NCBI GenBank assembly: GCA_018882895.1
Contig: VERF01000008.1
Span: 1 to 57,856 of the forward strand
Reading direction: 5' to 3'
Source: Candidatus Kapaibacterium sp.
GTDB lineage: Bacteria; Bacteroidota; Ignavibacteria; Kapaibacteriales; Kapaibacteriaceae
DNA: 57,856 nt
Shown here in pieces: positions 40,440 through 55,468 of this stretch. The notes under the pieces are model-generated. The model was not told the DNA's origin. It searched no databases and was given only the letters and a program-made list of their open reading frames with translations. A program made the translations under genes and the position numbers. Numbering within the stretch: the stretch's first letter is position 1; the number at the start of each line of letters is the position of its first letter.

Positions 40440-43400
40440 ATGAAGTTCGTCGCAACCATCGTTGTCGCTCTCGTTGGGTTCTGTTCGCTTGGCGCACAGA
40501 CTGCCCAGCGCTGGAAGGAAGTCATACTTCCGGCACCGTATGATGGGGGCTACTATCTCGACATCTTCTTCCTGCCGTCGAACCCGAATCTTGGCTGGGC
40601 GTGCGATCAGTTTAGGGGCTATGTGGTGCGCACCACCGATGGTGGCAACACCTGGCAGGGGAGCAGCGTCTCCGGTGGTACTAGCTGTCACTTGGAGTAC
40701 ATCCAGTTTCTGGACGCGAATGTTGGCTATGCCTCCGGTCCGTGCGGCATGTACAAATCCATCGACGGCGGTCGCACGTGGACGTCGATAAAGCCGGCCG
40801 GCTCTCCGACGATATGGGGCGGGTGGTTCAAGAATGCGAATGAAGGTTGGTTTGTGGGAGGGGGCTGCGGATCGTGTACCTTCCTGCGCACGGTTGACGG
40901 AGGAACTACATTCACTTCGGTGACCGAAACAAGCGTTGGCCGATCGGTGATGAGCGACCCTTACTGGGCACCCGACATGGCCCCCGGCGAGGTCTTCGCC
41001 GTTGGCAGTGGCACCTTGTGGCGATCCGGCGATGATGGCGTAACCTGGCAGTTCTTTGCCAACACCGGCACCAACGCCCCCTGGCACGAAGAACTCGCGA
41101 TGGTTGGTCAATCGGTGCTCATTCCCAATGATCGAGAACGTTGTGGAAGTGCGGCACCGACCACGCTTGGTATGCGCTTCAGCACCAATCGCGGCACGAC
41201 GTGGCGGGATTTCGTCACCGGCGAAAGCATGTATGGAACGTTCCTGCACGATGCGCAACGCGGTTGGGCAGCCGGCACCAATGAGGCCGTCTACTACACA
41301 TCGAACTCCGGTCAGGCTTGGACGAAACGCTCTTGTGGCTTGAACGGAGCCGACTTGGATGACGTGTTCTTTATCGACGATAACAATGGCTGGGTGGTTG
41401 GTGACGGCATCTTCCGAACAGCCCCGGCACTGCGGACGCAAAGTGACTCGGCGTTGCAGTTCCGTCTGGTCTGTTCAGACTCCGCGGGCATTGACACCGT
41501 GCGTGTTCAGAACGTCAACTGGTTTGCGTCTCCATGGTCGGCATCCATCATCGGAACCGATGCAGCGATGTTCAGCATCGCCAACGCCCCGTTGAGTGCG
41601 ACCATTGGCACCTGCGAGTTCCGCAACATCGTCGTGCGCTACAAACCCACCACGCGGACAACGCACACGGCTGTGCTGGCGATCACGTTTCAACAGCCGG
41701 ACACGACATTATACGTCACGCTTGAGGGACAACCATTCACGCCAACGGCTGCTCCGTTCGACACGTTGGTGACGTACACGGCGCCGGTGGGGCAGCCCCT
41801 TGCCAAGACGCTTCTGTGGCGGTCCACCTCGGCAACGATGCTTGAGTCGATCGTGTCGATCACCTATGCATGGGGCGATAGCACGGTGACGATGACGGCC
41901 GCAAGGTATCCTGAGATCGTTCGCACCGACGTGACGCTCACTTACATAAATGCAATTCCGCGAGATACGGGGTGGACCCAGACGCGGTTTCGCGTGAAGC
42001 TTGCTCCATGTATGCGCGACACGTTCATCACGGTGCGCATCTATGGGGTTTCGCCAATCATCACCTGTCCGGCAGGTGTCTTGGCAAATGCTTCGTGTAA
42101 ACAGCGCGACACGCTTCGTATTCCGATCTCGAACACGGGTAACGAAACGCTGGAGATTTCTACGCTGCGCATCAGTACCGTGCAGACCAATGCGTTTACC
42201 CTTATCGGCTTCGTCAGTGGTCGAGCCGGCGCACCGTGGAAGATGACCGTTGGCCAAAAGGACACGCTCCTGATCGCCTACGTGCCGGATCGAGGACGCG
42301 ACGCTGCAACACTTGAAATCGTCAATAACGACCTGACGCGCAAGCGTGGGGTAAAGACACCGTGGATCGTCAATCTCCAAGGTAACTCCGACCGACCGCG
42401 GTTGACCGTTGACAAGCGTACCATCGACCTCGGTTCGATATGCGGTGGGGCAATCATATCGCGCACAATCAACGTAACGAACATTGGTCTGGTTGCCGGA
42501 TCGGTGTCGGCCACCAAGGGGTCTTCACTCGTCGAACTGGAGCCATCAGGTACGGTCGCCGTGTCGCCCGGACAGGTCCGCCAGCTAACCGTCACTGTTA
42601 ACGCCACACGTGAGGGGCGGTTCACGGACACGGTCATGGTCCGCATAGCCCCTTGCGACACTCTTATCCCGGTCGTCATCACCGGGATGGTCGAGGCTCC
42701 GGAGATCAGGATCACACCATCGATCATTGCCGATACCGGCGCGCCGAACGAGATCCTGCGTGGTCGCGCGGTCATCACACTGGTGCAGGGCCAGGGTGTG
42801 TCGGTGCGAGACATCCGCATCACTCCACTGCCGGCGCAACTGAAGTTCATCCTTCCTCAGCTTCCAATTACGTTGGCCGGAAGTGACAGCATTGTGGTCG
42901 ATTTCACGTATTCGTCCGCGACACCTTCGGAGTATCGTGGAGTTATAGAAGTAGTAGCCGCAACGTCATGCTCCACCACAGCCTCGTCAGAGATCCGGTT
43001 CAGCGTTGTGAGCAATGACGTGCGATTCACACCCAATCCCGTCGAGTGGGAGTACCTCTGCACGAACGCAAGGCAAGAACAGAAGATTACCATCGAGGCC
43101 CGTGGGTCGCTCCCGGTCACCGTCCTGAGCGCACGGCGTCGCGGCGCTACGTCGCCGTTCTTTGTAACCGGACCATCCTTCCCACTCACGGTCAACCCGG
43201 GCACGCCCCGTGCCATCACCGTGCTGTTTGATCCGCCAACTACGGGCGTCTACTCCGACACGATCGACATTGACACGGACGTTGAGGGGGCCGATCCGGC
43301 CATCGCATTGAAGGGGGCCTACCAGACGGCCGACATTCAGGCGGACCCATCGGTGGTGAGCACTGTCCAACCGTGCGATCCCGATCAGGTCTTTTGGGTG

Positions 43401-44672
43401 CGTGTTTCCAACATCGGAGGCGCACCAACGCGTATCAGCGCCACGGCGAGTGCAACGCTGGCCAAGGCCACGATCACGCCAATGATGCTGAACGTGCCGC
43501 CCCTTGGCACCGACTCCGTGCAAGTGCGAATCCGGCCATCAGACTATGCTCCCGGTACGGCTCTGCTCGGACATGTCATCTTCAAAGAGGATGTCTGCGG
43601 CGATGCTGACTCGACGTCTGTCTCCGTATTCATCGCGGATCTGAAATCTCTTCGACTGCAGCCGGATCCGCTCGATGTGGGTGTTATCATCGTCGGCTCT
43701 CGGGCCGTTGGTTCGGTAACCATCGAGAATCCGGGAGCTGACACCGTTACGATCACTCGGGCAGTCCTTGAGCCCGCGACATCGGTGTGGACCCTTCGCA
43801 GCGGCCTTGTCGGACAGCGCATCGCCCCTTCTGCGAGCATCTTCGCCGATGTGGAGTTCATACCGACGGCGGCCGGACGCGTCACGACGCGTCTCGTGGT
43901 TGAATCTCAAGGGGCATGTGCTGACACCGCTGCGTCGAGCCTCGTCGGCGAAGGTCGCGAGCCCCGTGTACCAATCACCTATCGAGTACCGCTACGGGTG
44001 GACGAGTATGTTGTCGGCCCGTCGACGCGTCTTGACATTCCCGTGCATCTCGATGCGAATGTGAGCGATGCCCTCATAGATACGCTACAGTGGACGGTGC
44101 GATACCATGCCGTCAACCTAGTTGTCGATTCAATCATCTCAGGCACCGCGCCGGATGTCGACCTAACAGCCAGCATCGAGACCGGAGCGATCCGCTTCCT
44201 GGCTGTGCGCCGAGGTCCGCTGTTTGGTTCGATGGGTTCGCTTGGCATCATCCGTGCCACTTCGCGCTCGGCGATTCCCGACTCAACGCCGCTGTCGATC
44301 ACTGACATGCGAGCCGTGAGCAAGGAGCTCACCGAACTGGTGAACAATGACGGGTACGTGATCGTCGATGCCTGTGGACCAAGGAACCTCATCACCTTTG
44401 CCGAAAAGACGAAGTTTCGCCTCGCGCCGCCGCTCCCGATCACCGGAGCAGTGCTGACCATCAATGCGGAGGCAGAGCAAAATGATGTGGCCTACGTCGA
44501 TGTCACCGATGCCCTTGGTCAGGTGGTAGCTTCCCATTCGGGCATTCCCGTTGTGAGGGGGCCATCCACGCTCCAACTGGATATCTCATCGCTATCGAGC
44601 GGCACCTATTTCGTGGTCGTGCGCTCCAATTCGCGCGGTTCCATCACGGCTTTCGTTCCGGTGGTTCGCTGA
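40440..44672 (+). CDS. Giant secreted protein: BNR/YCF48-like N-terminus, ASH-type repeats, T9SS tail
   Basis: 1410 residues with signal peptide (VATIVVALVGFCSLGAQ). Residues about 25-320 contain Asp-box repeats (DGGNTWQG, DGGRTWTS, DGGTTFTS, DDGVTWQF, NRGTTWRD, NSGQAWTK), as in sialidase-like/YCF48 beta-propellers. The middle has many ASH/choice-of-anchor-D-like modules, each with a Cys near an Asp-(Ser/Thr) phrase (APCMRDTFI, CKQRDTLRIPISNTG, APCDTLIPV, QPCDPDQVFWVRVSN). C-terminal T9SS domain ends ITAFVPVVR. The 3' end overlaps the convergent gene by 29 bp. Probable surface or extracellular scaffold. Confidence 0.8.
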   Translation: MKFVATIVVALVGFCSLGAQTAQRWKEVILPAPYDGGYYLDIFFLPSNPNLGWACDQFRGYVVRTTDGGNTWQGSSVSGGTSCHLEYIQFLDANVGYASGPCGMYKSIDGGRTWTSIKPAGSPTIWGGWFKNANEGWFVGGGCGSCTFLRTVDGGTTFTSVTETSVGRSVMSDPYWAPDMAPGEVFAVGSGTLWRSGDDGVTWQFFANTGTNAPWHEELAMVGQSVLIPNDRERCGSAAPTTLGMRFSTNRGTTWRDFVTGESMYGTFLHDAQRGWAAGTNEAVYYTSNSGQAWTKRSCGLNGADLDDVFFIDDNNGWVVGDGIFRTAPALRTQSDSALQFRLVCSDSAGIDTVRVQNVNWFASPWSASIIGTDAAMFSIANAPLSATIGTCEFRNIVVRYKPTTRTTHTAVLAITFQQPDTTLYVTLEGQPFTPTAAPFDTLVTYTAPVGQPLAKTLLWRSTSATMLESIVSITYAWGDSTVTMTAARYPEIVRTDVTLTYINAIPRDTGWTQTRFRVKLAPCMRDTFITVRIYGVSPIITCPAGVLANASCKQRDTLRIPISNTGNETLEISTLRISTVQTNAFTLIGFVSGRAGAPWKMTVGQKDTLLIAYVPDRGRDAATLEIVNNDLTRKRGVKTPWIVNLQGNSDRPRLTVDKRTIDLGSICGGAIISRTINVTNIGLVAGSVSATKGSSLVELEPSGTVAVSPGQVRQLTVTVNATREGRFTDTVMVRIAPCDTLIPVVITGMVEAPEIRITPSIIADTGAPNEILRGRAVITLVQGQGVSVRDIRITPLPAQLKFILPQLPITLAGSDSIVVDFTYSSATPSEYRGVIEVVAATSCSTTASSEIRFSVVSNDVRFTPNPVEWEYLCTNARQEQKITIEARGSLPVTVLSARRRGATSPFFVTGPSFPLTVNPGTPRAITVLFDPPTTGVYSDTIDIDTDVEGADPAIALKGAYQTADIQADPSVVSTVQPCDPDQVFWVRVSNIGGAPTRISATASATLAKATITPMMLNVPPLGTDSVQVRIRPSDYAPGTALLGHVIFKEDVCGDADSTSVSVFIADLKSLRLQPDPLDVGVIIVGSRAVGSVTIENPGADTVTITRAVLEPATSVWTLRSGLVGQRIAPSASIFADVEFIPTAAGRVTTRLVVESQGACADTAASSLVGEGREPRVPITYRVPLRVDEYVVGPSTRLDIPVHLDANVSDALIDTLQWTVRYHAVNLVVDSIISGTAPDVDLTASIETGAIRFLAVRRGPLFGSMGSLGIIRATSRSAIPDSTPLSITDMRAVSKELTELVNNDGYVIVDACGPRNLITFAEKTKFRLAPPLPITGAVLTINAEAEQNDVAYVDVTDALGQVVASHSGIPVVRGPSTLQLDISSLSSGTYFVVVRSNSRGSITAFVPVVR

Positions 44673-45723
44673 TCGTTCCGAGCAGCTCCCGCAAACCCGC
44701 GCGGGCACCATCCTGCAGCATCAGCTTCGTGTCGTCGGCGATCGCACTGGTGGCCTTCTTATCAGTCGTGACGGCCCCCTTCTGTCCGATGGTCTGCAGA
44801 TACAGGGTAAGCTCTGCCGAATTTCCCTTTCGCTGATAGCGTCCGGTGATGATCCTATCGATATCGAACGCCCGCAGCGTGGTCAGCTCGGCGGAGCTGA
44901 CGGGGTTGTAGTTCTCGACGAGATAGAGTCCGGCCTTGGCATAGATCGAATCACGCGTATCGGTGTCGATCACGATGAGGTCGTCTCGGAATCGCAGTGC
45001 GGCGATCATTGTCTGCACAAGATCGAATGACGCGACCACCTTCTCTTTAAAGGTCGACCACGGTATCACGTCAGGGGGCTGCTGCGCAAACGCGACGCCT
45101 CCGATGCAAAGAAGGGCGGCAGGTCTGATGCGAAGAGCTTCATCGGCAGTGGCGTACAGTGAAGAATCTCGTAACGCAATGCACAGTGCCCGCTGCATCG
45201 AGCTCAGGATCGCCGGGTCATAGATCATCTTTCCGGTGGTGTCACTCTGCAGGTAGGTGACGCCGTAGCCGTGTCCATTGGTTGTGAACGTGAACCCATC
45301 GCCCCCTGCGATCACCAACTCCGAGCGAATCAGATTGGCGATGCGCGCAACGGAAGCAAAGACGATCAGTTCGGCTCCGAGCGAATCTGCCACGCGCTGG
45401 TAGGTGACGGAGTCTCCGAGGGTGCGTGCGAGAGAATCGCGGACCTCGAGCGGAACAACAGTATAGAGCTTGGTTGACTCAAAGGCGAGTGCCAACCCGG
45501 CCATGAGCTTGTCCGGCGCCAGACCCGCATCTGAGGTGTCCGTATCGATCCGCGCGATCATCACGCGTTGGGTTTGAGCATGCACGGAGGCAGGGGAACA
45601 CGGCAGCATGCAGACCGCAAAGACAGCGGCTGCAAGGCAATGTAACGGATAGGTAATACAGGCGTAACACCCACCTAACAGGCTGCCGATAGTTTCGAAG
45701 ACGTTCGTTCTGTTCCCGATCAT
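44644..45723 (-). CDS. Secreted protein of unknown function (TolB-N/CsgG-like fold possible)
   Basis: 359 residues from ATG 45723, which is 16 bp from the divergent TonB receptor start. A hydrophobic signal-like stretch (CLAAAVFAVCMLPCSPASVHAQ) starts only after about 25 residues, so the true start may lie further in. The mature part has VMIARIDTD, then VTYQRVADSLGAELIVFASV, then RIITGRYQRKGNSAELTLYLQ; such nucleotide-binding-like repeats occur in TolB N-terminal and CsgG-type periplasmic domains. No catalytic motif seen. The end overlaps the giant protein gene by 29 bp. Confidence 0.55.
   Translation of the reverse strand: MIGNRTNVFETIGSLLGGCYACITYPLHCLAAAVFAVCMLPCSPASVHAQTQRVMIARIDTDTSDAGLAPDKLMAGLALAFESTKLYTVVPLEVRDSLARTLGDSVTYQRVADSLGAELIVFASVARIANLIRSELVIAGGDGFTFTTNGHGYGVTYLQSDTTGKMIYDPAILSSMQRALCIALRDSSLYATADEALRIRPAALLCIGGVAFAQQPPDVIPWSTFKEKVVASFDLVQTMIAALRFRDDLIVIDTDTRDSIYAKAGLYLVENYNPVSSAELTTLRAFDIDRIITGRYQRKGNSAELTLYLQTIGQKGAVTTDKKATSAIADDTKLMLQDGARAGLRELLGTISEPPERKP
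45691..45698 (+). promoter_or_regulatory. Promoter-like AGTTTCGA within repeated 12-mer, upstream of TonB receptor
   Basis: Part of TGCCGATAGTTT (45684-45695), identical to the sequence before secD. Here TAGTTTCG matches TAnnTTTG at all fixed positions but one. The gene start is about 42 bp downstream. Confidence 0.25.
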
Positions 45724-45739
45724 AAGGTCGATCAATCCC

Positions 45740-48568
45740 ATGAAAACAGTGGTTTTTCTTGTTGCGCTGGCAATTGCACAGGCGCTGGCCGTTGCGCAAA
45801 ACGGCATCATCGAAGGCAAAGTTACAGATGCCGCCACCGGCGAGGCACTTCGCCAGGCCAGCATTTCGGTAGTTGACACGAAGAAGGGGGCTTACTCAGA
45901 CACCAAGGGCTCTTTCAAGATCAAGAATGTGGCACCTGGCACCTACTCTCTTCGCGTCACCTACGTCGGCTACGATCCACGTATCGTCGAGAACGTTACC
46001 GTTGCACCGGGAGCCACCGCAACGGTGACCGTTTTGGTGAACGCGACATCTCGCGCTGCCAAGGAAGTTGTGGTTGCTGCCGAGAAGATCAACGACAATG
46101 CGGCTGCATTGTTGATCGAACGCAAGAACGCTTCGCAGGTGAGCGACGGGATCGGCCGCGAGGAGATGTCGAAGCTTCCTGACAGTGATGCCGGACAGGC
46201 GCTGAAGCGAGTATCTGGCGTTACGTTGCTTGATGGCAAGTACGTGTACGTGCGCGGCGTCAGCGACCGCTACAGCAACACGACGCTCAATGGGGCGGCT
46301 CTGACGTCGACCGAGCCGGATCGCAAGGCCTTTGCCTTTGACATGTTCCCGACCGAACTTCTTGAGAACGCCAACATCGTCAAGTCCTTCACGCCGGACC
46401 TTCCCGGCAATTTCGCCGGCGGTCTGGTGCAGCTCAACACGGTCGACTTTCCGTCGGGCAAGGGGCTGAAGGTTTCGGCATCGCAGGGATTCAATGACTT
46501 CGTCACCTTCAAGGGCGATGCCTTCTTCCAGAGTCAGTCGGTAGCGGGCGACAACTTTGCTTTGGGTGCTCCCGGACGTGCCCTTCCTGCGAACTTCCCA
46601 CAGAACCGCCTCGAGATGAATCAACTGCTGCGCGACGTGCGCTCAGGCAACCAGGAAGCCATCAACCGGATGGATGGATTCGGTCGAACGTTCAACAACG
46701 GCAACTGGTCGAGCTCCGCAGCAACCGCAATGACAAACGGCGGTCTGTCGCTGACATACACGGACATCGTTGCCATCGATGATGAGCAGGAGATCGGCTT
46801 TGTTGCATCGGGCAACTACGGCACGTCGTGGCAGAACAACGTCATCACCCGTGCGGGTGTCTTGTCGAACCCGCAGGACTTCCTCTTCAAGTTCGACGGC
46901 GTGCAGTCGACGCGCTCCGTCTCCTGGGGTGGCCTATTCAACGTGGCCTATCGTGTTGGAAGCGGCGGTCGCATCAGCTTCAAGAATGCCTACAACCGCT
47001 CGGCCGATTTCGAGAACATTGCACTTAACGGTACCAACTTCGCACAGTCCCAGGCACAGAGGCTGTTCTCGTTCCAGTATGTGGAAAAGCAACTCTACTC
47101 TGGAGCTCTGACGGGAGAGCACACGATCGGCATGTTCAACAATGCACTGATCGACTGGAAGCTTGGCTATTCGAACTCGACGCGTTCAGAGCCTGACTTC
47201 AGGCGCTTGCAGTTCCTTCGTGACGCGTTCGATCCAACGCAACCGTACACGGCTGCCTTCGACTTGTCGCCGCAAGGGGCCGGCTCGCGCGCCGGACGCT
47301 TCTTCTCCGACCTCGACGATCATGCCGTCAGCGGATCGGTGAACGTGTCTCTTCCGATCACCACCGACATCAAGATCAAGTTCGGCGGTCTCTTTGAAAA
47401 CCGCTCGCGCACATTCAATGCCCGTTCGATCACGATCGTACAAGGGGCTGAGAATGACATCTCCGGCAACATGACCATCACCGATGCGGAGGCGTATCCT
47501 GACCTTGGAAAGTTCTTTGCCGACAGCAACTTCAGCGTTGAAAAGCAGCGTCTGAGCTACTCGGAAGACTCCAAGCTTTCGGATCAGTACGACGCAATGG
47601 AGAGCCTTGGTGCCGGCTACGTCATGTTTGATGCGCCATTCCAGGTCATGGGGCTCGACATTCGCCTCATCACCGGTGCACGCGTTGAAAAGAATGTGCA
47701 GCTCCTGAACTCCTTCACCGTTACGGATGACCGCGTCAACGTTAACCGCGACCTCCTGGACATTCTTCCGGCCTTCAATCTGATCTTCCGTCCGATCGAG
47801 AACTTGAACATTCGCACGTCGGCATCGCAGACCTTGGCGCGCCCGTCCTTGCGTGAGTTCGCCCCCTTCCAGTTCTATGACTTCGGCATGCAGGCAACAG
47901 TGTCGGGCAATCCGAACCTTGTGCGCGCCCTGATCCTGAACTACGACTTGCGCGTTGAGTACTTCCCGGCCGCCGGCGAAGTCCTTTCGGCTGGTGTCTT
48001 CTACAAGCGATTCGACAATGCGATCGAAGAGACGCTCTTCCCACAGCAGTCCGAGCTTGTTCGCTCCTACGCCAACGCCAGTGGCCCGGCCAACAACGTC
48101 GGCATCGAACTCGAAGCGCGTAAGTCACTGGGCTTCTTTGGACAGGCACTCCGCGACTTCATGTTCTCGATTAACGCGGCCTTCATCGACTCGCGTATCA
48201 CCGTGCAGCAGGCGGGTGTGAACGATTCACGTTCGATGTGGGGACAGAGCCCCTACACGGTCAACACGACGCTTTCGTATTTCAATCCTGACACGAAGAC
48301 CGCCGTCACGCTAGCCTACAACACGTATGGTCGCCGCATCATCCAAGTGAACCTCGTTGGCGTCTTCCAGGGCAACCCACACGTGTATGAACTGCCTCGT
48401 CACGTGATCGACTTCTCGGTCATCCAGCCGATCGGTGACGCGCTCGAACTGAAGATGAGCATCCGCGATCTGCTGAATCAGCCTCTGAAGTGGGAGCAGA
48501 ACGGTGCGCTCATCCAATCCAACATTCGAGGCATGGGCATGAGCCTTGGCCTTGGTTACCGCTTGTAA
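45740..48568 (+). CDS. TonB-dependent outer-membrane receptor
   Basis: 942 residues. Signal peptide (FLVALAIAQALAVAQ), then a carboxypeptidase-regulatory-like domain (IIEGKVTDAATGEALRQASI), a plug with VSGVTLLDGKYVYVRGVSDR and LNGAALTSTEPDRKAFAFDM, and a barrel ending SLGLGYRL. The plug wording resembles the large TonB-receptor subclass with RGxxDRYxxxxLNG motifs. Imports a nutrient (unknown) using TonB energy. The next gene starts 28 bp later on the same strand with GGAG before it, so the two are probably cotranscribed. Confidence 0.92.
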   Translation: MKTVVFLVALAIAQALAVAQNGIIEGKVTDAATGEALRQASISVVDTKKGAYSDTKGSFKIKNVAPGTYSLRVTYVGYDPRIVENVTVAPGATATVTVLVNATSRAAKEVVVAAEKINDNAAALLIERKNASQVSDGIGREEMSKLPDSDAGQALKRVSGVTLLDGKYVYVRGVSDRYSNTTLNGAALTSTEPDRKAFAFDMFPTELLENANIVKSFTPDLPGNFAGGLVQLNTVDFPSGKGLKVSASQGFNDFVTFKGDAFFQSQSVAGDNFALGAPGRALPANFPQNRLEMNQLLRDVRSGNQEAINRMDGFGRTFNNGNWSSSAATAMTNGGLSLTYTDIVAIDDEQEIGFVASGNYGTSWQNNVITRAGVLSNPQDFLFKFDGVQSTRSVSWGGLFNVAYRVGSGGRISFKNAYNRSADFENIALNGTNFAQSQAQRLFSFQYVEKQLYSGALTGEHTIGMFNNALIDWKLGYSNSTRSEPDFRRLQFLRDAFDPTQPYTAAFDLSPQGAGSRAGRFFSDLDDHAVSGSVNVSLPITTDIKIKFGGLFENRSRTFNARSITIVQGAENDISGNMTITDAEAYPDLGKFFADSNFSVEKQRLSYSEDSKLSDQYDAMESLGAGYVMFDAPFQVMGLDIRLITGARVEKNVQLLNSFTVTDDRVNVNRDLLDILPAFNLIFRPIENLNIRTSASQTLARPSLREFAPFQFYDFGMQATVSGNPNLVRALILNYDLRVEYFPAAGEVLSAGVFYKRFDNAIEETLFPQQSELVRSYANASGPANNVGIELEARKSLGFFGQALRDFMFSINAAFIDSRITVQQAGVNDSRSMWGQSPYTVNTTLSYFNPDTKTAVTLAYNTYGRRIIQVNLVGVFQGNPHVYELPRHVIDFSVIQPIGDALELKMSIRDLLNQPLKWEQNGALIQSNIRGMGMSLGLGYRL

Positions 48569-48596
48569 TAACGATCATTACCACACGGAGAAATCC

Positions 48597-51500
48597 ATGC
48601 GTCTCGTAGTCTCACTGTTTGCTCTGCTTGTCGTGCTAAGCTCGACTGTTCTGGCACAGAATCCTTCTTCATGCGTAATCCGTATGCCCAATGGCGGAGA
48701 GATATTCCGTCCGGGAACCACGCAGGAGATGCGCTGGGATACGGCAGGCACATTTCGTGCTCGGTGGAGGTTCCTTTTCGGTACGACTCCGGCCGGACCA
48801 TGGACGCCTTTGACTGGTTTGACCAATGTGCTCGACTCGGGTGCAACGCGCGGACAGTCAGTGCCAACCTCCGGTGGCTGGCGCGTACCGAACGTGCCTA
48901 CCACCTCGGGCTACATCCGCATGGAGCTGATCGCAGATCCGAACGTGTTCGATATCACCGACAACCCGTTCACGATCGAAGAGCCCCGTACCATTCAGCC
49001 TGATTCGATCCTTGCCGGCGAGATCACTCGTTCGATCACGCTTCGGGCCACGAAGATCTACGGTCTGAGCGGCTATGTATATGTGAACAACGGTGCAACC
49101 GTAACAGTCGAACCCGGAACGATCATTGTTGGCGATCAGCCCGGTTCCAACTCAGCGCTGGTGATCAACCGCGGCGGTAGGATCATCGCTAACGGAACCA
49201 AGGACCGTCCTATCGTCTTCACCTCACGTGCCGCCCCGGGTCAGCGCGCCCGCGGTGACTGGGGAGGCATCCTCATCTGTGGCAAAGCTCGCGTGAATCA
49301 GCCTGCAGGGCAGGCCGCTCTCGAAGGCGGCGTGGCCGATCAAGCGGCAGGGGGCAAGGGCTGGTATGGTGGAACAGAGGATGACGACACAAGCGGCATC
49401 CTGCGCTATGTGCGAATCGAATTCGCAGGTATCGCCACACAACCAAACTCTGAGCTCAACTCACTTACGCTCGGCGGGGTAGGTCGTGGCACCACGATCG
49501 AGTACGTGCAGTGTTCGTACGGCAACGACGATGCCTTCGAATGGTTCGGCGGCTCGGTCAACGGCAAGTACCTTATTGCTTACGGAACGCTGGATGATGA
49601 CTTCGACTGTGATAACGGCTTCTCCGGCAAGGTGCAATTCGGTATCGTCAAGCGCTTCCGCACCGTGGCTGACGTATCGACATCGCAGGCGTTTGAGATC
49701 GACAACGATGCAACGTCCTCTTTCAACAACCCTCGCACGGTGCCGATCTTCTCGAACTTCACCGTGATCGGACCTTTACAGGATACAGCCTGGACAGTTG
49801 GAAGCGGCCTGAACCAGTATAGTTCGCGCTATGGGGCAGCTGCTCAGATCCGTCGCAACGCCCGCGCTAGCATCTTCAACACGGTCTTCGTAGGATGGCC
49901 ACGCGGATTTGAGATCGCCCAGGCACCGACGATGGTTGCTGCCAATGGAGATACGCTGATGGTGCGCAACAACAGCTGGTTTGGTGTGAAGGGGGCTACG
50001 CTGACGCTGGCCAGTGGCACGCCTCCGGCAGGTATGGATGCAACGTGGCTTTCCAAGAGCGGCTTCAACAATGAGGTCGACAAGGGCAACCCGAACAACG
50101 CCTTCATCGCCAACGCATGGCCGAACGACAACACGTTTGATCCTCGACCCCTGTCTGTGGCAACATACCTCACGACGGGAAGCTTCGACAATGGTTCACC
50201 ACTGGTGCCGATCGCTGACGCGTACTTCGAGCGAGTTTCATACCGCGGTGCATTTGCCAGCGGTGCGGCTCGTTGGGATGAAGGTTGGGCAGAATATGAT
50301 CCAGTCAACCGTGAGTATCGTGCTCAGCCCCTTGTCCGCCTCGTATCCCCCGGTGCCGCTGCCGGCGAGAAGTACCAGCAGGGTCAGAAGCTGAACATCA
50401 CCTGGGACACATCGGGCGCTAGCGGTAACGCCTTCAAGTTCGAGTTTGCCACGTCGGCCACGGGCCCATGGCAGCCGATCGCCGGTGCCGAGAACGTGAC
50501 CGACGCCGGTGCAACACGCGGTATGCTGAAGGACGGCTTTACGGTGCCGAACATCGTCACCACAACAGGCTACATCCGCATGACGCTGGTGAGCGACCCG
50601 TCGGTGTTCGACATATCGGACGCGCCGTTTGCCATTGAAGCCCCCGTTGTTCCGGAACCAGCCGTGCGCCTCATCGAACCAGGCGGAAACAACAAGGTGT
50701 TCCGCGTGGGCCAATCGGTTGACGTTCGTTGGGATACCACCAATACGTTCCGCAGCCGCTGGCGTTTTGAGTTTGGCAAGAGCGTTGACGGGCCGTGGAA
50801 GGTCATCGCCGGTTTGGCGAATGTGCTCGACAGTGCAACACGTCGCGGTGTCTTTGCAGGCGGCATTGTCTTCCGTCCGGAAGATCAAACCAAGACCGGA
50901 TATGTGAAGATGACGCTTCTGAGTGACACGACGAAGTTCGACGTCAACGATCAGCCGTTCGAAGTTGTAGCACCTGCGCCGATCAAGGTCGACTCCGTCC
51001 TCGAAGGCGAGATCACAGGTCGCGTGCGCTTGGTCAACACCAAGATCTACGGCCTGAAGGGATACGTATACGTCAACGACGGTGCCACACTCGAGATTGA
51101 AAAGGGCACCATTGTTGTCGGTGATGAAGTCGGCAACAACTCGGCGATCGTGATCAACCGTGGCGGCAAGATCCTTGCCGAAGGAACAGCTCAGGATCCG
51201 ATCATCTTCACCTCCCGCGCCGTACCGGGTCAGCGTGCCCGTGGCGACTGGGGTGGCATTCTTATCTGCGGCAAGGCCCGGATCAATCAGCCGGCCGGTC
51301 AGGCCGCTCTCGAAGGGGGCGTTGCATCGCAGACAGCCGGCGGCAAGGGCTGGTACGGCGGAACGGATGACGACGACAACAGTGGCGTGCTCAAGTATGT
51401 GCGCATTGAGTTTGCCGGCATCGCTACGCAGCCGAACTCGGAGCTGAACTCACTCACCATGGGTGGCGTGGGCCGTGGCACTACGATCGAGTACGTGCAG

Positions 51501-52595
51501 GTGTCGTACGGTAACGACGATGGCTTTGAGTGGTTTGGCGGAGCGGTCAACTCCAAGTATCTGATCTCGACAGGAATTCTCGATGATGACTTCGACACAG
51601 ATAACGGTTTCTCCGGCAAGGTTCAGTTCGGTGTGTCTCAGCGCTATCGCACAGTGGCCGACGTGTCGACGTCGCAGGCGTTTGAGTCGGACAACGATGC
51701 TCAGGCATCATACAACCAGCCATTTACCTCGGCGACGTTCAGCAACATCACGGCCATCGGTCCAATTCAGGATACGGCCTGGACGCCGGGATCGGGCGCC
51801 AATCAGTACAGCACGCGCTTTGGTGCAGCTGCACAGATCCGTCGCAACTCTCGTCAGGCCATTCACAACTCTGTCTTCATTGGCTGGCCGCGTGGCTTTG
51901 AGTTTGCACAGGTGCCAACAATGATCGCTGCGGCGGGAGATACGATCGAGATCCGCAATAATTCGTGGTATGGCGTCAAGGGCGCCGTGCTGACGCTTGC
52001 CGGCGGAACTGCTCCGGCCGGCATCGATGCGAGCTGGCTTGCAAAGCCTGCTTATGGTAATGTTGTTGACAAGAGTTCGCCGGCAGGAGCGATGCTTGAG
52101 AATCCGTTCCCAACAAATGTCGACTTCAATCCGGCGATCAAGACGGGAAGCCCCCTTGAAGCATCAGCAAAGTTCGAAGGAAAGTCAGCCGACGCATTCT
52201 TTGATAAGGTTACCCACCGCGGTGCCTTCGGCATGCAGCGCTGGGATCTTCCGTGGTCGGAGTACGACCCGGTCAACCGCGAGTATCGCGCCAAGAATCC
52301 AACGTCCGTGCGCGAGGACGACCAAGTACGTGCCGGTATCACCGGCAGCGTATTCCCTAACCCGTCGATGGATGCCTCGACTGTCCGCTACCAGCTGGCA
52401 AGCGCAGACGTGGTGACCATCCGGCTGACCGACGCAACGGGCTCCGTTGCAGGCACGTTCATTGCGAACGTGGCGCAGCAGGCCGGTGTGTATGAGTTCC
52501 GACTCATCACGGCCGACCTTGCTTCCGGTCTTTACTACCTGACGATCTCTGGTGAGCGCGGAACAATGACGACCCCCGTCACGGTTACCCGCTGA
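48597..52595 (+). CDS. Large T9SS-exported protein with duplicated beta-helix-like module
   Basis: 1332 residues from ATG 48597; GGAG lies about 6 nt upstream. Layout: signal peptide (LFALLVVLSSTVLAQ), Ig-like domain 1, beta-rich module 1 (about residues 136-576), Ig-like domains 2 and 3, beta-rich module 2 (about 799-1233), and a T9SS tail (VFPNPSMDASTVRYQLASAD ... VTVTR). Both large modules carry DWGGILICGKAR, YVRIEFAG, NSELNSLTxGGVGRGTTIEY, DDDFDxDNGFSGKVQF and DPVNREYRA. The pattern resembles known Bacteroidota proteins encoded next to TonB receptors. Probable surface ligand-binding partner (inference). Confidence 0.8.
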   Translation: MRLVVSLFALLVVLSSTVLAQNPSSCVIRMPNGGEIFRPGTTQEMRWDTAGTFRARWRFLFGTTPAGPWTPLTGLTNVLDSGATRGQSVPTSGGWRVPNVPTTSGYIRMELIADPNVFDITDNPFTIEEPRTIQPDSILAGEITRSITLRATKIYGLSGYVYVNNGATVTVEPGTIIVGDQPGSNSALVINRGGRIIANGTKDRPIVFTSRAAPGQRARGDWGGILICGKARVNQPAGQAALEGGVADQAAGGKGWYGGTEDDDTSGILRYVRIEFAGIATQPNSELNSLTLGGVGRGTTIEYVQCSYGNDDAFEWFGGSVNGKYLIAYGTLDDDFDCDNGFSGKVQFGIVKRFRTVADVSTSQAFEIDNDATSSFNNPRTVPIFSNFTVIGPLQDTAWTVGSGLNQYSSRYGAAAQIRRNARASIFNTVFVGWPRGFEIAQAPTMVAANGDTLMVRNNSWFGVKGATLTLASGTPPAGMDATWLSKSGFNNEVDKGNPNNAFIANAWPNDNTFDPRPLSVATYLTTGSFDNGSPLVPIADAYFERVSYRGAFASGAARWDEGWAEYDPVNREYRAQPLVRLVSPGAAAGEKYQQGQKLNITWDTSGASGNAFKFEFATSATGPWQPIAGAENVTDAGATRGMLKDGFTVPNIVTTTGYIRMTLVSDPSVFDISDAPFAIEAPVVPEPAVRLIEPGGNNKVFRVGQSVDVRWDTTNTFRSRWRFEFGKSVDGPWKVIAGLANVLDSATRRGVFAGGIVFRPEDQTKTGYVKMTLLSDTTKFDVNDQPFEVVAPAPIKVDSVLEGEITGRVRLVNTKIYGLKGYVYVNDGATLEIEKGTIVVGDEVGNNSAIVINRGGKILAEGTAQDPIIFTSRAVPGQRARGDWGGILICGKARINQPAGQAALEGGVASQTAGGKGWYGGTDDDDNSGVLKYVRIEFAGIATQPNSELNSLTMGGVGRGTTIEYVQVSYGNDDGFEWFGGAVNSKYLISTGILDDDFDTDNGFSGKVQFGVSQRYRTVADVSTSQAFESDNDAQASYNQPFTSATFSNITAIGPIQDTAWTPGSGANQYSTRFGAAAQIRRNSRQAIHNSVFIGWPRGFEFAQVPTMIAAAGDTIEIRNNSWYGVKGAVLTLAGGTAPAGIDASWLAKPAYGNVVDKSSPAGAMLENPFPTNVDFNPAIKTGSPLEASAKFEGKSADAFFDKVTHRGAFGMQRWDLPWSEYDPVNREYRAKNPTSVREDDQVRAGITGSVFPNPSMDASTVRYQLASADVVTIRLTDATGSVAGTFIANVAQQAGVYEFRLITADLASGLYYLTISGERGTMTTPVTVTR
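49002..50325 (+). repeat. First copy of large internal coding repeat
   Basis: About 440 codons with high protein similarity and, in blocks such as 49230-49330 and 49440-49520, strong nucleotide similarity to 50991-52295. It lies inside one reading frame and marks an internal gene duplication. Confidence 0.85.
50991..52295 (+). repeat. Second copy of large internal coding repeat
   Basis: About 435 codons, the partner of 49002-50325. The two are separated by about 660 bp coding for two Ig-like domains, each with a conserved WDT and a GY(I/V)(R/K)MTL phrase. Confidence 0.85.
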
Positions 52596-53747: not shown

Positions 53748-53864
53748 TCAACGCTCCTCGGGACTGCGTCCGGTGAGTCGACGCCAAAAGCCGATAAGGT
53801 AGGGGGCAAGTAGGATCCCGACCACGATGATCGTACCGATAATGATAAATGGGCGCTGCAGCAT
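53748..53864 (-). CDS. 38-residue membrane protein upstream of acyltransferase-like gene
   Basis: Reads MLQRPFIIIGTIIVVGIL and continues LAPYLIGFWRR, LTGRSPEER, stop. One hydrophobic helix is flanked by basic residues on the cytoplasmic side (Lys/Arg-rich tail). Its stop TGA is followed by TC and then the ATG of the acyltransferase gene, so coupling is likely. No match known to me. Coding is supported by its tight spacing and good membrane-protein composition, but the length is too short to be certain. Confidence 0.5.
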   Translation of the reverse strand: MLQRPFIIIGTIIVVGILLAPYLIGFWRRLTGRSPEER

Positions 53865-53883
53865 GTCGGGAAGATAGGGATGG

Positions 53884-53891
53884 TATTTTTG
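53884..53891 (+). promoter_or_regulatory. -7-like element TATTTTTG for ppx
   Basis: Perfect TAnnTTTG, 17 bases before ATG 53909, leaving room for the GGAG at 53894-53897 in the leader. Confidence 0.4.
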
Positions 53892-53908
53892 ACGGAGAAC
53901 AATACTCC

Positions 53909-55468
53909 ATGAGCAACATCGAAACATCCGGTAAGATCGCAGCCATTGACGTCGGCACGAATTCCTTTCACATGGTCGTGGCCAGCCTTACCGACGCAGG
54001 AATGCTTCGCATCCATGCACGCTCGAAGGACACCGTGAGACTTGGATCGTCTGCGGGCGATATGAAGCGTCTGTCGGATGAGGCCATGGAGCGCGGTCTG
54101 CGCGCGATGGTGCGTCTTGTCGATGAGGCACGTCAGCACGATGCAACCGTGCGGGCCATTGCCACAAGTGCCGTGCGCGAAGCCCTGAACAAGGATGTGT
54201 TTGTAGACCGGGTGTTTAGGCAGACCGGCGTACATATTGACGTGATCCCCGGCATCGAGGAAGGTCGACTCATCTTTCTCGGCGTCCGCAATGCGCTTAG
54301 CATCGCCGATAAGCGAGTGTTCGCGTTCGACATTGGAGGGGGCTCCACCGAGACCATCACCGGACATGATGGCGAGCCCGTCTTCATTCATTCGGCCAAG
54401 CTTGGACACATTCGACTGACGCAAAGGTTCTTCCCCGATGCGACGGTGACCAACGAGCAGATCAATGAATGTCGGGCCTGGATCCGCGGCGAATGGCAGC
54501 CGGCCTTTCAGTCGCACATAGCATATGGGTTCGATGAGGCCATTGCGTGTTCTGGCACCGTCATGGCGCTTGCATCGGTCATCCTTGCTTCTGCCGGACG
54601 TCGCATGCCCGAGACCATGAACGGGTTGACGCTTGGGCGCGACGAGGTTCTTTCGGCCATCGATACTGTGCTTAAGGCCCGGACTCTCGAGCAAAGACTG
54701 GCAATCCCGGGGCTTGATGCGAAGCGTGCCGACGTGATCGTGGCCGGAGCGCTGATGATCGAGTACCTCATTAAGGGGCTTGGCATTTCCTCGCTCACGC
54801 TATCGGGCTACGCGCTTCGGGAGGGGATCGTATTTGACACGGTGCAGCAGGCGCGCGACATCAGTCTGACGCACCACCTGTCTCGTCTGCGGTACCAAAG
54901 CGTCCTGAACGTCTGTGAACTCTACCGCGTCAACCGGCACCATTCCGAACACGTCAAGCATCTGAGCGTTCAGCTCTTTGATGCTCTCATTCCGCTGCAC
55001 GGCATGGGCGACAAGGAGCGGGAGCTTTTGGAGGCGGCAGCGCTTTTGCATGACGTTGGCTACCACATTGCCGCAGACCAGCATCACAAGCATAGCGAGT
55101 ACATCATCCGCAACTGCGTCATGCCCGGCTTTACCACCGACGAGACCGTACTCATCTCATCCATTGCCCGTTACCACCGCAAGAGTCATCCCAAGCGTAA
55201 GCACCCCGTGTTTGCCTCGCTTAGTGGTGCCGACCAGAATCTTGTTGCCGTGCTGGCGTCGATCCTGCGCATCGCCGAGGGTCTGGACCGTCGGCAGCAG
55301 TCCGTTGTCAGGGGGCTGGAGGCACGCATCGGCCCTGACGGCATCGAGATCGTTCTGCAGGTACTAACGGACGTGCCCGACGTGGAGCTTTGGAGCGCCG
55401 AGCGGCGCACCGGGCTTCTGCAGGAGATATTCCGCAGGCCGGTCCGGTTCACCGTCACTCGAATGTGA
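53909..55468 (+). CDS. ppx: Exopolyphosphatase / guanosine pentaphosphatase (Ppx/GppA) with HD domain
   Basis: 519 residues from ATG 53909. N-terminal ASKHA domain with AAIDVGTNSFHMVV (phosphate-1) and FDIGGGSTETI (phosphate-2), typical of Ppx/GppA; a C-terminal HD region with HSEHVKHLSVQL and LLHDVGYH follows. Degrades polyphosphate from the end or converts pppGpp to ppGpp; motifs alone do not decide. The gene stands between a membrane acyltransferase (divergent) and htrA. Confidence 0.92.
   Translation: MSNIETSGKIAAIDVGTNSFHMVVASLTDAGMLRIHARSKDTVRLGSSAGDMKRLSDEAMERGLRAMVRLVDEARQHDATVRAIATSAVREALNKDVFVDRVFRQTGVHIDVIPGIEEGRLIFLGVRNALSIADKRVFAFDIGGGSTETITGHDGEPVFIHSAKLGHIRLTQRFFPDATVTNEQINECRAWIRGEWQPAFQSHIAYGFDEAIACSGTVMALASVILASAGRRMPETMNGLTLGRDEVLSAIDTVLKARTLEQRLAIPGLDAKRADVIVAGALMIEYLIKGLGISSLTLSGYALREGIVFDTVQQARDISLTHHLSRLRYQSVLNVCELYRVNRHHSEHVKHLSVQLFDALIPLHGMGDKERELLEAAALLHDVGYHIAADQHHKHSEYIIRNCVMPGFTTDETVLISSIARYHRKSHPKRKHPVFASLSGADQNLVAVLASILRIAEGLDRRQQSVVRGLEARIGPDGIEIVLQVLTDVPDVELWSAERRTGLLQEIFRRPVRFTVTRM

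Follow-up and report, generated by a model that had tools for sequence, protein, structure and literature searches.

What does a TonB-dependent receptor import when its gene is followed, 28 bp further on, by that of a large secreted protein in which a module of about 440 residues occurs twice? Such a receptor–partner pair is encoded by Candidatus Kapaibacterium sp. contig VERF01000008.1 (assembly GCA_018882895.1), analyzed here over its whole stretch of 57,856 nucleotides (the window), which is contig C64 of a 2.57-Mb genome in 131 contigs (G000, the own genome). An earlier note, made from the window alone, described the pair as a candidate uptake system and named iron, phosphate and sugar as substrates to be considered; of these, the evidence favours phosphate. 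The pair is probably a Pho-regulated, TonB-dependent phosphorus uptake system, a reading to which a probability of roughly 0.7 can be given. The passage of phosphate across the outer membrane of bacteria rich in TonB receptors is poorly understood, and the tie between the pair and a repeat array of the pst region would provide a substrate class for this family, together with a candidate PHO-box consensus for Bacteroidota. Published low-phosphate proteins without an assigned role (ElpS, FI, and FII) would become a testable transport system.

The pairing of the two genes was assessed in an order-level sample of 99 genomes, the own genome included. The module was found in 86 of them, in three weakly, and the receptor (E ≤ 1e-30) in 84. 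Both genes are present in 82 genomes, as against 30 genomes encoding SusD; 14 genomes lack the receptor and have either no module or, in three cases, a weak or partial match, and the three genomes with one gene alone have it at a contig end. For the positional count, 89 selected module rows were set against 87 of the 91 receptor rows, four fragments being dropped (two in G008, one each in G063 and G009). A neighbourhood survey had been proposed in which distant genes in relatives would speak against the pair; instead, the partner is the next gene downstream on the same strand at 80 of the 87 receptor places. Five of the seven exceptions stop at a contig start, one is a partial match (G020), and one is genuine: in G043 the partner is inverted and separated by three genes, a neighbourhood common to G036. 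The flanks, compared at 40 loci and in the window, vary between families of the order, and the pair therefore travels as a unit.

A wider scan of 84,980 species genomes returned at least 588 stretches encoding a module relative, the best 80 of which were analyzed as named loci (L numbers; these partly overlap the 99 order genomes). They are labelled as Bacteroidota, as Ignavibacteria-, Chlorobi- or Kryptonia-type, as plain “bacterium” and, once, as a “Bradyrhizobiaceae” bin, and include Parabacteroides, Chryseobacterium, Pedobacter, Hymenobacter and others. A receptor gene directly adjoins 69 of their 83 module genes (immediately upstream on the same strand in 68, immediately downstream in one); six others lie at a contig end, and five of the remaining eight have a receptor two genes off. 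Plasmid records contain the module in 21 cases, 16 of them proteobacterial (Pseudoalteromonas, Alteromonas, Marinobacter, Sphingomonas, and Indioceanicola), with a receptor as the neighbouring gene at all five loci inspected. The Pseudoalteromonas plasmid pair has ExbB, ExbD, and TonB genes one gene upstream, both alphaproteobacterial plasmid pairs are followed by type II secretion system (T2SS) genes, and two of the proteobacterial partner lipoproteins carry two modules. The Sphingomonas and Indioceanicola proteins match those of the window with E-values of 4e-34 and 1e-50, respectively, for the module and 2e-21 and 2e-60 for the receptor. The gene pairing is well supported by these comparisons, and it suggests that the two products may also be physical partners. 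A module protein at L209:7860–9293 (NZ_CP110137.1) is annotated as “cell shape-determining protein MreB,” an apparent misannotation.

The link to phosphate begins upstream of the receptor gene, where pentamers repeat with an 11-bp period (Table 1). The exact pattern TAAYA(N6TAAYA)x2 occurs once in the 2.57-Mb own genome (45654–45680) and never in 100 shuffles of the window. When one mismatch is allowed, three more sites appear: an overlapping unit, one on C19, and one on C38 in the gap above an operon encoding porin, PstS, PstC, PstA, PstB and PhoU. In this operon, all five Pst/PhoU genes score above their NCBIfam cut-offs and the heading porin passes PF07396. An operator common to the pair and the pst operon, as looked for in a Pho regulon member, is present, in differing orientation and with a regulator presumably of the PhoB type. 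The C19 copy (G000:C19:8436–8462, L296) is flanked on both sides by the end of an open frame and may be due to chance. Across 23 family genomes, 13 exact arrays occur, against one for the reversed control pattern; nine of the 13 lie before the receptor and four in the porin/pfkA gap; within this set, pst genes behind the porin are established in the own genome alone.

Under the one-mismatch rule, an array stands ahead of the receptor gene in 11 of the 18 family upstream regions that were usable (G022 left out; 0 in shuffles) and in 8 of 35 from elsewhere in the order (0.145 in shuffles), always on the + strand. The other Bacteroidota have it on the + strand in 21 of 56 upstream regions (0.05 in shuffles) and on the − strand in four of 56; among 709 other genes, it precedes two (+) and one (−). 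Most of the 17 array-bearing upstream regions contain a −7-like element at the same spacing, the Bacteroidota −7 consensus being TAnnTTTG. Sites of PhoB and PhoP are direct repeats with an 11-bp period, and the array presumably resembles the Bacillus PhoP box; the name PHO box is used because of this period, the pst neighbourhood and the form of these sites. A literature search for Pho box and Bacteroidetes gave, among the titles listed, none on a Bacteroidota Pho box.

Table 1. Features of the receptor–partner locus in the window
Feature	Position	Strand	Basis or remark
Candidate PHO box, four pentamers (TAACG, TAATA, TAACA, TAACA), 11-bp period	45643..45680	+	Reads towards receptor
TAGTTTCG, candidate −7 element, 9 nt past array	45690..45697	+	Similar element, same spacing in relatives
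TonB-dependent receptor, 942 aa	45740..48568	+	Open reading frame; CarbopepD_reg_2, Plug and TonB barrel (Pfam)
CarbopepD_reg_2 domain (PF13715), N-terminal	45809..46075	+	Pfam
Plug domain (PF07715), residues 130–224	46127..46411	+	Pfam
Secreted partner, 1332 aa	48597..52595	+	ATG at 48597, 28 bp past receptor stop
Ig-sized domain 1 (Ig1)	48672..48986	+	Internal alignment
Predicted beta-helix module M1	48987..50321	+	Internal alignment, relatives; model pLDDT 94.3, fold matches
Ig-sized domain 2 (Ig2)	50325..50648	+	Internal alignment
Ig-sized domain 3 (Ig3)	50652..50972	+	Internal alignment
Predicted beta-helix module M2	50976..52292	+	Internal alignment, relatives
Type IX secretion system (T9SS) type A sorting tail	52293..52592	+	TIGR04183 above cut-off

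Phosphate genes also stand beside the pair in relatives. Flanks were analyzed for genes encoding PstS, PstC/A, PstB, PhoU, PHO4 and DUF47 and for adjacent PhoB/PhoR-type pairs, with the seeds Pfam-checked in L204 and L154. They are present at 18 of the 69 loci L136–L204 (transport genes at nine, a PhoB/PhoR-type pair at 11, both at two) and at one of the 11 loci L125–L135, compared with none of 40 SusD loci from 17 genomes and none of 40 round-number-position loci from 13 of those 17 (Fisher p = 2.5e-7 for 18/69 against 0/80; any control loci that coincide with pair loci were retained, and a simple longest-open-reading-frame rule was used for gene calling). The pst operon adjoins the pair at L132, L180, L195, and L204 in differing arrangements, which are therefore hardly one inherited accident. 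Two of these loci also have arrays: in L180 the array precedes a porin gene (PF07396) that neighbours pst genes, and in L204 it precedes pstS. Overall, the link of the pair to phosphate control is well supported by sequence comparison. A protein of 728–749 residues is encoded beside phoB/phoR-type genes in L173 (13494–15680), L198 (15308–17545) and L204 (9156–11405), the L204 copy having no Pfam match.

The receptor gene, with its CarbopepD_reg_2, Plug and TonB barrel domains, and the partner gene after it are confirmed. The receptor reached 232.7 bits against TIGR01782 (TonB-Xanth-Caul), below the cut-off of 310 but with near-full coverage of the model, and 35 bits against TIGR04056 (SusC/RagA; cut-off 368.25). 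Its structural model (mean predicted local distance difference test, pLDDT, 87.9) has a TonB transporter fold, and TonB-dependent transporters fill all 50 Foldseek rows listed. A sequence search of the Protein Data Bank (PDB) returned for the receptor only chains resembling its first domain (four sequences). The 32 columns invariant in 47 receptors comprise nine basic and six acidic ones, which is no test of the ligand. The name Omp121 proved wrong for this receptor, Omp121 being of the SusC type.

The partner consists of an N-terminal signal, Ig1, M1, Ig2, Ig3, M2 and a C-terminal tail. Two immunoglobulin (Ig)-like domains had been described between the modules; Ig2 and Ig3 do lie there, but a third precedes M1, and the three domains, of about 105 residues each and mutually 41–47% identical, are termed Ig-sized by length. 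The description of the protein as T9SS cargo holds: its tail scores 28.5 bits against TIGR04183 (cut-off 23), although 24.1 against PF18962 is below the cut-off of 27, and SprA of the secretion machinery is encoded in the own genome (908.9 bits including neighbouring pieces; cut-off 200). No Pfam domain lies above its cut-off in the partner and no SusD match (PF07980) was found at E 0.01. The T9SS tail model (E ≤ 0.01) matches all 40 related partner tails, a broken gene in L086 being counted by its C-terminal piece. Sorted by simple pattern, the 78 complete partners of the best 80 loci comprise 50 with a lipobox and no tail, 23 with a tail and no lipobox, three with neither and two with both; therefore, at least two routes bring the module out. 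Best read, these sequences suggest a surface partner that passes through T9SS in this genome and is exported in lipoprotein form in others, in line with the porter and exported surface partner already proposed.

Modeled alone, M1 is predicted to be a parallel beta-helix, right-handed as read from its matches. The best VIA-align match is 7o0y_A, a NosDFY chain (Z 22.6, rmsd 3.2, 270 residues aligned), and alginate epimerases and phage tailspikes match equally well; the rows listed, with Z of 18.8–22.6 and 6–14% identity, also include polygalacturonases and lyases. Foldseek by itself was weak, with one match at E ≤ 0.001, and sequence searches of the PDB gave none for the module with a single sequence or a 31-member profile. 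Residues invariant across 31 modules (numbered by the first row of module alignment A1) include E108, D129, E151, D176, D177, E180, D198, D199, D202, D204, E232, D234, W87, and R284, and the DWGGILICGKAR motif pointed out in the earlier note belongs to this conserved core. The invariant acidic residues may form a cation site.

A pair of this kind has been published but is uncharacterised; the form found in the window, which combines two modules and Ig-sized spacers with a T9SS tail, is new. In Flavobacterium johnsoniae, the TonB-dependent transporter (TBDT) Fjoh_0545 and lipoprotein FII (Fjoh_0546) belong to a phoBR operon (PUSIV) and are raised in low phosphate (8.02 and 9.91 in the FC column), and PUSIII comprises TBDT Fjoh_3857 and FI (Fjoh_3856); FI–FIII are reported to be 31–36% identical to a Caulobacter low-phosphate lipoprotein (PMC8115612). 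There a TBDT stands next to a lipoprotein assigned to IPR011050, beside phoBR, and a similar gene order is present in the Chryseobacterium and Flavobacteriia loci analyzed here. FI and FII are, however, lipoproteins, whereas the window partner is T9SS cargo, and it is the arrangement that suggests a shared family. In Caulobacter crescentus, ElpS (CC0170), surface exposed and produced in low phosphate, and receptor CC0171 adjoin T2SS genes in the order CC0170-CC0171-gsp (PMC2996285), and the Sphingomonas and Indioceanicola pairs show the same partner–receptor–gsp order. ElpS is a lipoprotein with T2SS-dependent release, unlike the tailed, two-module partner with Ig-sized spacers in the window, where the receptor gene comes first; the presumed likeness was drawn through relatives and arrangement. 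No T2SS gene was detected among the seven window proteins scanned with Pfam, the rest of the genome not being searched for T2SS. According to a 2024 study, the PhoB regulon includes T2SS, Pst and various TonB receptors (PMC11208175). Low-phosphate induction of the window pair may be expected by analogy with these presumed relatives.

Two better-known outer-membrane systems differ from the pair. It shares with SusC/SusD the logic of a TonB porter and an exported surface partner, but the partner is a predicted beta-helix and, as the earlier note held, not SusD-like, and the receptor is not SusC by TIGR04056; a SusCD-like polysaccharide locus is ruled out by the lack of SusD in Pfam and by this score, and Pfam found no sugar enzymes among the seven window proteins. 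Porins of the OprO/OprP type (PF07396) likewise offer phosphate a route through the outer membrane, and a related array lies beside the gene in the own genome, but the porin is passive whereas the pair would be energised. The available parts of four further papers (PMC5399024, PMC12872454, PMC9123166, and PMC12611786) contain no direct link to the pair, the Kapabacteria literature offered nothing on it among the matches listed, and phrase searches of open-licence literature found nothing on TonB-dependent or outer-membrane phosphate uptake.

For a TonB receptor under phosphate control, phosphorus import is the function that naturally suggests itself, and the proposed mechanism is as follows. 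In low phosphate, a PhoB-type regulator would bind the array and turn on the pair, co-inducing the porin–pst operon elsewhere in the genome. The receptor would reside in the outer membrane, and the partner would be exported by Sec and then T9SS and retained at the surface. Its two beta-helix modules, spaced by the Ig-sized domains, could capture phosphate or a phosphorus compound, perhaps via a cation bound at the cluster of invariant acidic residues. The partner would hand the ligand to the receptor, TonB energy would drive import, and PstSCAB would take over in the periplasm. Tentatively, Bacteroidota and several Proteobacteria might both possess an energy-driven pump that carries inorganic phosphate itself across the outer membrane, in which a cation-holding beta-helix surface protein feeds the receptor as an alternative to phosphate porins. 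The export route would be set by lineage, whether by T9SS tail, as a surface lipoprotein or as a lipoprotein associated with T2SS, and the module would have been repeatedly duplicated (one to four copies).

Several observations weigh against phosphorus uptake under Pho control. The conserved charges of the module are mostly acidic and would repel phosphate unless a cation bridges them. At 51 of the 69 loci the flank analyzed contains no phosphate gene, pairs in the 17 control-yielding genomes score 4 of 17, the positive loci do not amount to 18 independent events because related genera share arrangements, and Pfam found no phosphate transporter among the seven window proteins. The array is missing in seven of the 18 usable family upstream regions. 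The copy beside the porin also differs in placement from the one before the receptor: in G000, G005, and G008 its direction is opposite to the porin gene, with a TAGGTTTG element at 3 nt, and in G003 and G010 it points to the porin but lies between a −7-like element and the ATG. In Caulobacter, CC0171 is reported to be constitutive, elpS deletion to leave phosphatase activity unchanged, and intracellular phosphate to be unaltered on a shift to poor medium (PMC2996285). The top Foldseek rows of the receptor are mostly iron, haem and siderophore transporters, at 10–13% identity.

This last result would suit a system that takes up iron, a vitamin or a sugar and has an unusual lid, the least probable of the explanations considered: exact arrays in the 23 family genomes are confined to the receptor front or the porin–pst head, phosphate genes are neighbours of the pair, and the highlighted TBDTs of F. 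johnsoniae are reported to be induced under phosphate depletion only (PMC8115612). The strongest rival, which falls short of an even chance, is that organic phosphorus or phosphorylated polymers of the surface are the target of the pair: the modules would bind or cut a phosphorus-bearing glycan, lipid or nucleic acid, and fragments would be imported by the receptor. It agrees with the published guess for FI and FII in Flavobacterium (PMC8115612) and with the beta-helix fold of polygalacturonases, alginate epimerases and lyases, although this fold is common and no guide to function. Overproduction of ElpS is reported to have increased alkaline phosphatase activity in supernatants, yet refolded and immunoprecipitated ElpS was without phosphatase activity (PMC2996285). 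A calcineurin-like phosphoesterase cluster flanks five of the 80 loci and an alpha-amylase cluster four Chryseobacterium loci, and further enzymes may be missed because flank genes were clustered and representatives alone named; against this stand the genes for inorganic-phosphate transport (Pst, PHO4, PhoU, DUF47) at nine of 69 loci.

It is unlikely that the array serves another OmpR-family regulator, or different regulators at the two promoters. Its orientation and spacing do differ between receptor and porin promoters, and the putative assignment to PhoB draws on the pst genes nearby, the 11-bp period and the presumed likeness to the Bacillus PhoP box, but the arrays before the porin gene near pst (L180) and before pstS (L204) weigh against this rival. 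Very improbable is a receptor whose object is its partner and not a solute, and which exports or anchors the beta-helix protein or signals that it is there. The tight one-to-one pairing would fit such a role, modelled on Oar, which is said to be required for PopC secretion in Myxococcus (PMC6434023); however, the partners bear export signals of their own, as counted above, SprA is encoded in the own genome, and deletion of cc0171 is reported to have left ElpS production unsuppressed (PMC2996285).

The two modules also record the history of the partner. M1 (445 aa) and M2 (439 aa) are identical at 306 of 438 aligned residues (70%; halves aligned directly), and the duplication is, as had been observed, still detectable in DNA, in blocks of 300 nt at 78% and 150 nt at 70%. 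Its supposed recency is ruled out by a synonymous divergence (dS, Nei–Gojobori) of 1.46 and by the module tree; DNA identity is 67.4% overall and 44.7% at third positions. When 55 modules were placed in a maximum-likelihood tree, the M1 module of the window grouped with M1 of G005 and of G013, from another genus, and its M2 with their M2, both with starred support. The duplication is older than the genus split, because M1 and M2 group separately with M1 and M2 of G013. Four 40-codon blocks of the central region have 82–90% identical residues, which fits purifying selection; local conversion between M1 and M2 may also have acted. Copies within one protein group together in G012, G017, G021, G027, G029, G030b, G031, G033, G037, and G093, therefore indicating repeated duplication, conversion, or both. 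Module number is one in many order-level relatives, three in G037 and four in G050, G055, and G076. The partners of G050 and G055 (L111 and L113) have about 2320 residues with the four modules in tandem.

Other genes of the window surround the pair. A divergent, genus-conserved gene without Pfam or NCBIfam match (44644–45879, − strand) has an open frame that crosses the repeat array; the GTG listed as its start, which would make it overlap the receptor, is probably not the true one. The second gene downstream of the pair, of the Ppx/GppA type (53849–55468), lies in kept local synteny and could relate to polyphosphate or be a coincidence. Just upstream, 40440–44672 encodes a second large T9SS-type cargo, which is 1410 residues long and joins BNR/Ycf48-like domains and Ig domains of the HYDIN/ASH type to a T9SS tail.

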